A stretch of DNA of 64,000 bases. It comes from an uncultured Butyricicoccus sp. (GTDB lineage: Bacteria; Bacillota; Clostridia; Oscillospirales; Butyricicoccaceae). The DNA is taken from NCBI GenBank assembly GCA_904420185.1, contig CAJFUJ010000026.1, positions 1 through 64,000 of the forward strand, read 5' to 3'. The translations under genes and the position numbers were made by a program. Below the pieces are notes generated by a model. The model was not told the DNA's origin. It worked only from the letters and a program-made list of their open reading frames with translations, and searched no databases. Positions within the stretch are counted from its first letter, which is position 1. Every line of letters begins with the position of its first letter. This document shows positions 18,208-21,942 of this stretch, piece by piece.

Positions 18208-18237
18208 TTGAATTTGTCCCCGCATCGGGGGTATCAT
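18208..18237 (+). promoter_or_regulatory. Candidate promoter TTGAAT-18-TATCAT with CCCC-N5-GGGG dyad in the spacer
   Basis: Spacer-centred dyad, reminiscent of MerR-family sites. Confidence 0.35.
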
Positions 18238-18342
18238 ATTTGTTAAAGCAGACTAACTACCGGATCGCCCGGCGAGTCGGCTGCACCGCTTTGCATCTTG
18301 CATTTTTTCATTTGTACAATAAACCGAGAGGAAGTATGGAAT

Positions 18343-19446
18343 ATGACGAAAATCGACATTATTTCTGGATTTTTGGGGGCAGGCAAGACGACGCTGATTA
18401 AAAAGCTGCTCTCCGAAGCCCTGAAAGGCCAGCAGGTCGTGCTGATCGAAAACGAATTTGGTGAAATTGGAATTGATGGCGGCTTTTTAAAGGAGTCGGG
18501 GATTCAGATCACTGAGATGAATTCGGGCTGCATTTGCTGCTCGCTGGTCGGCGACTTTGGCAAAGCCCTCAAGGAGGTCATCGAAACCTATCATCCTGAC
18601 CGCATCATCATTGAACCGTCCGGCGTAGGCAAGCTGTCCGACGTGATCCGCGCCGTGCAGGACGTAGCCGAAAAGGAGCCGGTTGTACTCAATAGCTTTG
18701 TAACCGTTGTCGATGTGCTGAAATGCAAGATGTATACCAAGAACTTTGGCGAGTTCTTCCTCAATCAGATTGAGCACGCAGGCGCCATCTTGCTCAGCCG
18801 TACCCAAAACGCCAAACAGGACAAGTTGGATGCCTGCGTGCACCTGCTGCGCGATCATAACCCGAACGCCCGCATCGTCACCACCCCGTGGGACGAGCTG
18901 ACCGGCGCGCAGATGCTGGAGGTCATGGAAGCCAGCCATTCGCTCGCTGAGGAGCTGCTCGAGCAGATCAAACAGGCGTCCGTACCGGCGCACGAACACG
19001 AGCACGAACATCATCACGAGCATGAATCTGAACATCCGCACGAACACCATCATGACCATGCGCACCCGCACGAGCATCCCCACGACCACGCGCACGGCGA
19101 AAGCTGCGGCTGCCATGACCATGGACACCATCATCACCACGATGGCTGCGGCTGCGGACATGATCATCATGCCGACGAGGTGTTCCAAAGCTGGGGCGTA
19201 GAGACGCCGAAAAAATTTACCGCGGACGAACTGGATGGTTGCCTGACCAAGCTGGGCGATATTTCGTTGGGAACTGTGTTGCGCGCCAAGGGCATTGTAC
19301 CCTGTGCCGACGGTGGCTGGCTGCACTTTGACTACGTCCCTGGTATGCCAGAAATCCGGCAAGGCGCGGCCGATTATACCGGCCGGCTGTGTGTGATCGG
19401 CGCCGATCTGGATGAAGACCGTCTGGCCGACATTTTTGGCGTGTAA
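18343..19446 (+). CDS. CobW/COG0523-family GTP-binding protein with extended His-rich metal-binding segment
   Basis: GFLGAGKTT, NEFGEIGIDGGFL, SGCICC; HEHEHEHHHEHESEHPHEHHHDHAHPHEHPHDHAHG... Confidence 0.93.
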   Translation: MTKIDIISGFLGAGKTTLIKKLLSEALKGQQVVLIENEFGEIGIDGGFLKESGIQITEMNSGCICCSLVGDFGKALKEVIETYHPDRIIIEPSGVGKLSDVIRAVQDVAEKEPVVLNSFVTVVDVLKCKMYTKNFGEFFLNQIEHAGAILLSRTQNAKQDKLDACVHLLRDHNPNARIVTTPWDELTGAQMLEVMEASHSLAEELLEQIKQASVPAHEHEHEHHHEHESEHPHEHHHDHAHPHEHPHDHAHGESCGCHDHGHHHHHDGCGCGHDHHADEVFQSWGVETPKKFTADELDGCLTKLGDISLGTVLRAKGIVPCADGGWLHFDYVPGMPEIRQGAADYTGRLCVIGADLDEDRLADIFGV

Positions 19447-19458
19447 GGGGGAAACGGT

Positions 19459-20406
19459 ATGAAACCCCCTGCTTATATCTTTGTCGGCCTGCTGGAAAGC
19501 GGGAAAACGAGCTTTATTAAAGAGGTGCTGGCTGACCCCAATTTTACGCTGGATGAAAAGACCTTGCTGATTCGTTGCGAAGATGGCATCGAAGAATATG
19601 ATGAAGATTTTCTGGAAAAGTATAACACTGTCTTGGTCGCGGTGGATGAGGAAGAGGAACTCACTACAGCGGCCTTGAAAAAGGCGCATGAAGCAGAAAA
19701 CCCTGACCGTGTCATCATCGAATTCAATGGGATGTGGGATTTGGGGCACTTCGTGGACCAGGTTATGCCGAACTGCTGGGAGTTATATCAGATTATTGCG
19801 ACCGTTTGTGGGCCAACCTTTGAGCTTTATTCAAATAATCTAGGGCCCAAGATGTTTGAACATATCACCGCGTCGGATTTGATTGTGTTTAACCGCTGTA
19901 CCGAAGCAGACAAGGAGTACCTGCACAACCGGAATATCCGTGCGATGAACCCGCGGGCAACCATTTTCTTGGACGATGTGGACGGCAATTCCGAAGACTA
20001 CCGGGACAATATGGTCATGCCATTTGATCTGGATGCGGATGAGATTGACATCAGCGACGAGGATTTTGGGTTGTGGTATGTGGATGCAAGCAGTGATCCG
20101 GAAAAGTATGACGGTAAGACCGTCCGCTTCAAAGCGCATATTCTGATCACGCCGCAGCTGCCGGAAGGGTGGATTGTACCCGGGCGGCATGGGATGGTCT
20201 GTTGCGCTGAGGACATTCAGTTCCTGGGTTTCGCCTGCAATGCGGGCGACCGCTTCCCGCAGCTGCAAAACAAGGGCTGGTACCAGGTGACCGCTCACAT
20301 CCATGTGGAGGAACTGCCGCAGTACAAGGGCGCAGGCCCGGTGTTAGACCTAGTCGATATCGTGCCGGCGCAGCCGCCTGAGGAAGAAATCGTTTACTTC
20401 AATTAA
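19459..20406 (+). CDS. CobW-like GTPase domain with TIGR03943/DUF1980-like C-terminal domain
   Basis: GLLESGKTSF P-loop; C-term DGKTVRFKAHILITPQLPEGWIVPGRHGMVCCAEDIQFLGF. Confidence 0.75.
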   Translation: MKPPAYIFVGLLESGKTSFIKEVLADPNFTLDEKTLLIRCEDGIEEYDEDFLEKYNTVLVAVDEEEELTTAALKKAHEAENPDRVIIEFNGMWDLGHFVDQVMPNCWELYQIIATVCGPTFELYSNNLGPKMFEHITASDLIVFNRCTEADKEYLHNRNIRAMNPRATIFLDDVDGNSEDYRDNMVMPFDLDADEIDISDEDFGLWYVDASSDPEKYDGKTVRFKAHILITPQLPEGWIVPGRHGMVCCAEDIQFLGFACNAGDRFPQLQNKGWYQVTAHIHVEELPQYKGAGPVLDLVDIVPAQPPEEEIVYFN

Positions 20407-20418
20407 GATAGTAAAAAC

Positions 20419-20467
20419 GAAAACCGGCGTTCGATCGGGGCCATGGCCTCGGTTGAACGCCGGTTAT
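20419..20467. terminator. Long terminator hairpin
   Basis: AACCGGCGTTC ... GAACGCCGGTT then T-rich. Confidence 0.75.
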
Positions 20468-21602: not shown

Positions 21603-21942
21603 TGGAAAAGCACCTCCTATAAAAATTACATTCTCATTGTATCACATGTTTTTGAAAAAACAAGGGATTTCAAACATGTTAGCCGTCTACAACTTCATGT
21701 TAGCAATAACTAACCGGAAATGCGGCGGATTTTTGCCAAAAAAGTTGGGAAGACTAGAGGGGACTAGCATGATTTTCGGTACTTGTCTTTCCTTGCCGGC
21801 TCTATCCGCACAGGTTTTGGTGCGTTGCCATGATAAATACGGAAGCCATAAGATTGCTGAGAAATGAATACAAAAGAAATCATTTAAATAAGATAGAAAA
21901 TAGAAGAAAACAAAAGATAATCGATTGGATTTCAATTGCAAA

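Follow-up and report, generated by a model that had tools for sequence, protein, structure and literature searches.

Why should a GTPase that lacks the metal motif of its family be joined to a domain otherwise found beside membrane permeases, and be encoded directly behind a canonical CobW protein? The question is raised by a gene pair in the window, the 64,000-nucleotide stretch of Butyricicoccus DNA analysed here. To our knowledge, the TIGR03943/YraQ proteins (ScfAB, YcgQR) are widespread fitness genes of no known function, and we know of no clients for most COG0523 proteins. The fusion and the gene arrangements described below tie these two families together through one GTPase, in zinc loci, and the fusion protein, P0002, is a small soluble protein with which the DUF1980 domain could be studied free of the membrane. 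As far as the open-licence literature searched shows, the pair is uncharacterised so far; no description of a GTPase-DUF1980_C fusion was found there under the topics COG0523, COG3689, YcgQ and permease.

Tandem CobW GTPases had been proposed at 18343-20406, and both open reading frames were confirmed there, intact and on the same strand with 12 nt between them (Table 1). The pair is flanked by a gluQ-like gene and a tRNA cluster, with an Rfam scan nearby returning tRNAs and nothing else. The sole good promoter ahead of the pair in a consensus scan has its -35/-10 elements at the same position in the congeners L002-L006, while the hairpin behind the second gene folds at -37.6 kcal/mol (z = -7.2). 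With a promoter in front and a hairpin at the end, P0001 and P0002 look like a complete operon. The promoter spacer is filled by a palindrome, CCCCGCATCGGGG (window 18216-18229), which was considered as a MerR-type operator and rejected, a similar one being present in L002 only and absent from the other congeners.

Table 1. Features of the gene pair and its flanks (positions in the window).
Feature	Position	Strand	Basis
Predicted sigma-70 promoter, TTGAAT-18-TATCAT	18208..18237	+	consensus scan
Candidate operator, dyad box GTTAAAGCAGACTAACT, imperfect copy of GTTAGCnnnnGCTAAC	18242..18258	+	just past -10
P0001, canonical CobW/COG0523 metallochaperone-type GTPase, 367 aa	18343..19446	+	Pfam domains
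CICC metal motif, P0001 residues 63-66	18529..18540	+	sequence
His-rich arm, P0001 residues 217-276, 60 aa	18991..19170	+	composition
CobW_C domain, P0001 residues 281-365	19183..19437	+	PF07683 8.8e-9
P0002, CxCC-less G3E GTPase fused to DUF1980_C, 315 aa, without TM segment	19459..20406	+	
GTPase domain, P0002 residues 4-169	19468..19965	+	PF02492 8.2e-8; YjiA fold
DUF1980_C domain, P0002 residues 187-313, OB-like barrel	20017..20397	+	PF21537 2.4e-16; model strands; OB-fold matches
CC, P0002 residues 248-249 (with R243, D252), candidate metal site	20200..20205	+	100% in 106 rows
Terminator hairpin at operon end, 20-bp perfect stem then TTATTTT	20422..20465	+	

The features of the COG0523/CobW family, namely the P-loop (GFLGAGKT), the CxCC motif and the cobW (6.6e-40) and CobW_C domains, were all found in P0001, of which E. 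coli YjiA is the nearest solved relative. The metal-loading arm of about 60 residues described at first pass is likewise present and contains 29 His, 9 Glu, 5 Asp and 4 Cys.

P0002 retains a P-loop (GLLESGKT) and a cobW domain scoring 32.5 bits against a Pfam cut-off of 20.7. CobW_C, the ordinary tail that would have contradicted the proposed TIGR03943/DUF1980-like C-terminus, was searched for with Pfam and gave no match; DUF1980_C stands in its place at 60.1 bits against a gathering cut-off of 25.9, so that the proposed tail was upheld. The full TIGR03943 model matched P0002 at 7.8e-17 over model positions 102-219 alone, its 61.4 bits lying below the cut-off of 88.8, and the N-terminal TM segments that are a trait of TIGR03943 proteins were not found in P0002. 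The first-pass annotation was also right that CxCC is missing, as it is from all fusion proteins (0/106), but its suggestion that an acidic stretch had taken the place of the motif did not stand, as P0002 has lost the entire CxCC loop by comparison with YjiA, and the acidic stretch comes after the deletion. The profile alignment shows this loop as inserted in YjiA when set against the fusion family, where nothing corresponds to E37, C66 and C67, the metal residues of YjiA.

Residues invariant in alignment A1 are G10, G15, K16, E41, E88, N90, G91, N145 and R146 in the GTPase domain and G242, R243, C248, C249 and D252 in the tail. The Cys pair is common to the fusions and most TIGR03943 proteins, appearing as HC in L178 and L180; Cys and His metal ligands often interchange. 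Modelled by AlphaFold from its single sequence P0002 reached a pLDDT of 46, which an alignment of 62 fetched relatives raised to a mean of 92.6 (pTM 0.76), and the resulting model predicts a G3E GTPase followed by an OB-like barrel, the latter providing the structural check of the C-terminal part that had been called for. A PDB search with the P0002 sequence alone gave no match while a profile search led to YjiA, and the top Foldseek matches in the PDB to the N-terminal part were YjiA (Zn-bound forms included), HypB and UreG, those to the C-terminal part being OB folds such as mitochondrial SSB, CST and Asp/Asn-tRNA synthetase domains.

Proteins and nucleic acids are frequent ligands of OB folds, and two rival readings of P0002 follow this line. 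The protein could be a metal-free adaptor, a GTP switch that sets the client specificity of CobW with the OB domain docking proteins, and both the OB-fold matches and a GTPase domain that keeps all nucleotide-binding invariants without E37, C66 and C67 are in keeping with this; as no residues of the tail are more conserved than the Cys pair and D252, which also recur in TIGR03943 with C/H exchange, we regard such an adaptor as unlikely. A role linked to translation, in which the OB domain would bind RNA or ribosomes during metal starvation, has a precedent in the CobW-like factor that recruits MPY in mycobacteria (PMC7174638) and is compatible with the matches to ssDNA-binding and aminoacyl-tRNA synthetase domains. 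Ribosomal genes were not found beside the inspected fusions, however, and RNA binding makes little sense for the TIGR03943 relatives, which are membrane-bound or secreted, such that this role is highly improbable.

The survey of the domain fusion suggested at first pass showed it to be real and widespread, with a full-length fusion in 89/295 genomes of the order (Oscillospirales) and at 80 loci among public genome contigs of Butyricicoccus, Agathobaculum, Oscillospiraceae, Lachnospiraceae, Erysipelotrichaceae and Christensenella; some public loci duplicate the order's genomes, leaving 99 distinct fusion proteins and 90 distinct partner CobWs. CxCC was present in 90/90 of these partners and the His-rich arm in 88/90. 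Using a threshold of E < 1e-50, a CobW orthologue was detected in 88/89 genomes with the fusion versus 5/206 without (88/1/5/201, Fisher P = 7e-68), and across loci the CobW gene lies immediately 5' of the fusion with a median gap of 13 nt (88 loci). The sole genome with the fusion only, G176, is cut off upstream of it. Among the five with CobW only, G168 and G033 carry a GTPase-permease fusion (see below), G251 and G294 have a weaker match (47-49% identity) and in G113 the locus stops at a contig edge. The CobW-like gene of G294 (L216:3095-4234) follows what reads from its sequence as a ferredoxin-type activator gene for corrinoid proteins, with a similar neighbour in G251, and its product is possibly a cobalt or corrinoid metallochaperone. 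The pairing varies in a few loci: in Pseudobutyrivibrio (L101/L103 and L109) the fusion has no adjoining CobW, and in Butyrivibrio hungatei (L105/L110) a different CobW adjoins it. The order in L105:6844-10061 is FUR-family gene, fusion, different COG0523 protein, indicating that the partner can be exchanged. Judged by this distribution, CobW and the fusion are a real unit that is common in butyrate-producing gut bacteria.

The first-pass annotation had noted that no permease was visible near the pair, and the absence proved genome-wide: no ArsP_1 (PF03773)/YraQ permease was detected in the window's own genome, G000 (83% complete), or in the congeners G012 and G035 (each 100% complete). Across the order 73/89 fusion genomes are without an ArsP_1 permease and 16/89 have one, permease presence being independent of the fusion (Fisher P = 0.44), which rules out dependence of the fusion on a distant permease. 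Replacement of ZnuABC by the fusion was likewise ruled out, as ZnuA presence was not associated with it (P = 0.70); in six genomes around the window, from the genus and family, ZnuA was not found. The missing permease would also suit a leftover of a lost permease complex that is functionless today. This is contradicted by conservation, with frames intact in 88/89 genomes, the catalytic and Cys residues invariant at 31-71% identity and the pairing with CobW constant, and the likelihood of a functionless leftover is close to negligible.

The origin of the fusion is indicated by its relatives. In the phylum Bacillota, DUF1980_C was found in TIGR03943 proteins beside a permease, in the GTPase fusion, and in small proteins of secreted or lipoprotein-like type; L197, L198 and L204 encode short DUF1980_C proteins whose N-termini resemble a lipobox and which come without a permease. 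Three settings were seen for the CxCC-less GTPases: ArsP_1 permease fusions, free-standing proteins with a hydrophobic segment at the C-terminus (as in G497), and DUF1980_C fusions. Full-length TIGR03943 was confined to 2/295 genomes, G168 and G033, other strong matches being mostly the fusion. In G168 (L111) it lies in a zinc locus with CobW, a GTPase-permease, a regulator of the FUR family, ZnuA and ABC genes, and in G033 (L112) with a GTPase-permease, ZnuA, ABC genes, FUR, CobW and S14 and L28 paralogues, the latter two with a single Cys each, as is typical of zinc-free ribosomal proteins. The G033 cluster (L217:1228-3574 with L112), which unites Znu genes with the FUR-family regulator, CobW and these two paralogues, has the look of an island for zinc starvation. 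The GTPase-ArsP_1 permease fusions of these zinc-uptake loci (L111:7775-9361, 528 aa; L112:2419-4032, 537 aa) were not found described in the open-licence literature. In G445, ZnuA, permease, TIGR03943 and CobW genes are followed by a stand-alone GTPase with a C-terminal TM segment.

In a tree of the G domains the DUF1980_C fusions occupy one side of a single branch (SH-aLRT 93) and their clade joins the permease-fused GTPase of G168 (SH-aLRT 98); the fusion is thus of single origin on the GTPase tree. The CxCC-less GTPases stand apart from the canonical CobWs (SH-aLRT 86), a separation to be read with caution given the long branches, while the CobWs of G168 and the window group together (SH-aLRT 98). 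The YjiA sequence used as outgroup agrees with the PDB segments from the profile alignment. A published finding agrees with this origin: in B. anthracis, Zur binds ahead of both an ArsP_1 permease operon (BAS1632) and the neighbouring yciC (PMC6336718). The permease/TIGR03943 pair is important for S. pyogenes fitness with its function not known (PMC5584981). By hydropathy the TIGR03943 proteins of L111, L112 and L205 contain three hydrophobic segments, and the loop joining TM2 to TM3 is basic, from which their DUF1980_C domain is probably outside the cell, and a listing of S. aureus lipoproteins includes a DUF1980 protein. By the same measure 104/106 fusion rows are without a TM segment, such that DUF1980_C seems to have moved to the cytosol in the fusion.

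Ancestry points to zinc, as the relatives lie in zinc loci, while local control points to iron. The dyad GTTAGCnnnnGCTAAC, in the form RTTARnnnnnRCTAAC, precedes cobW in 33/97 upstream regions versus 0.3 expected from shuffles, with 25/89 distinct cobW genes carrying it, all from Butyricicoccus/Agathobaculum; it was not seen before cobW outside these genera among the 97 regions. The pattern has 13 occurrences in G000 versus 1 for a reversed control. Across six genomes its neighbours included feoB and flavodoxin with DUF3793 (each in five genomes), a ZIP transporter (in three), ABC transporters and a P-type ATPase, so the window operon shares its candidate operator with known iron genes. This gene set looks like an iron-deficiency regulon, and the box common to feoB and flavodoxin genes suggests that the operon is under iron control. 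DtxR sites have similar dyad half-sites with different spacing (PMC524172), and G000 encodes two small DtxR-family and two FUR-family proteins. No Zur box or Znu/Zur neighbourhood was seen at the pair in the window, whereas such neighbourhoods are present around the related genes of G168, G033 and G445. Several copies of the dyad box lie ahead of DUF3793 and flavodoxin genes in L152:2129-3165 and L161:3627-4663, and DUF3793 may be an iron-starvation protein. A P-type ATPase beside a YtxH-like small protein near an iron-type box (L151:110-2585; L156:5126-7699) presumably recalls ferrosome (Fez) genes. Elsewhere in the window a perfect-looking box, GTTAGCAATAACTAACC, lies at 21699-21715, some 220 bases ahead of a ctsR-like gene (21936).

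It is possible, if somewhat unlikely, that the relay proposed below carries iron, the pair having been recruited in Butyricicoccaceae to an iron-deficiency regulon under a DtxR/IdeR-type repressor and delivering or sparing iron. The frequency of the dyad, its other neighbours and the two small DtxR-family proteins argue for this, but the nearest unfused relatives lie in zinc loci, the box is confined to the two genera with the repressor a candidate only, and the metal that regulates need not equal the cargo. By ancestry the cargo would be zinc, possibly iron in Butyricicoccaceae, and zinc is somewhat more likely than iron.

The first-pass description of a streamlined metal-trafficking pair remains the best reading, from the 88/89 pairing and the absence of a permease, with the trafficking itself an inference. 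We consider it reasonably probable that the pair is an operon for metal starvation, derived from a zinc GTPase-permease module as its soluble offshoot, in which P0002 relays metal with CobW. The ancestral zinc-linked module would have comprised a canonical CobW, a CxCC-less sister GTPase, an ArsP_1/YraQ permease and a TIGR03943 protein. Metal scarcity would derepress the operon; CobW would take up metal at CxCC in a GTP-dependent cycle with the His arm as a buffer; P0002, binding GTP and having lost a CxCC site of its own, would be an obligate partner docking on CobW via its G domain; and the invariant Cys-Cys-x-x-Asp site of its OB domain would receive or position the metal and hand it to cytosolic clients. 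As the ancestral GTPase presumably sat on the permease, the fusion would make this step membrane-independent. The scheme is supported by the architecture, constant pairing, permease loss and kinship to zinc-locus GTPases. It is weakened by the loci in Pseudobutyrivibrio (no adjoining CobW) and B. hungatei (a different one), and by the probable extracellular position of DUF1980_C in TIGR03943, whose role there need not hold in the cytosol; for zinc in particular it is weakened by the feoB/flavodoxin box and by the fusion not tracking ZnuA. The fuller scenario, in which a zinc-module GTPase captured an outward-facing DUF1980_C into the cytosol to form a permease-independent relay of two soluble GTPases that spread in gut Clostridia and passed from zinc to iron control in Butyricicoccaceae, is tentative and, taken whole, rather unlikely.

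Set against known systems, P0001 has every sequence feature of the COG0523 (CobW/ZagA/ZigA/YjiA) G3E GTPases, while P0002 keeps their cobW G domain, P-loop and ExxG but differs in having neither the CxCC loop nor CobW_C and in ending with DUF1980_C. With the TIGR03943/DUF1980 proteins (B. subtilis YcgQ, S. pyogenes ScfB) P0002 shares the C-terminal OB-like domain and R..x.CCxxD; unlike these proteins and their ArsP_1/YraQ partners (YcgR, ScfA), it has no DUF1980_N, TM segments or permease and is GTPase-fused and presumably cytosolic. A further likeness is to the zinc module of G168 and G033, in which a related CxCC-less GTPase and a canonical CobW are also clustered, but there the GTPase is fused to an ArsP_1 permease, ZnuABC and Fur/Zur lie in the cluster, and the DUF1980_C that P0002 carries within its own chain is borne by a separate membrane protein adjoining the GTPase-permease.
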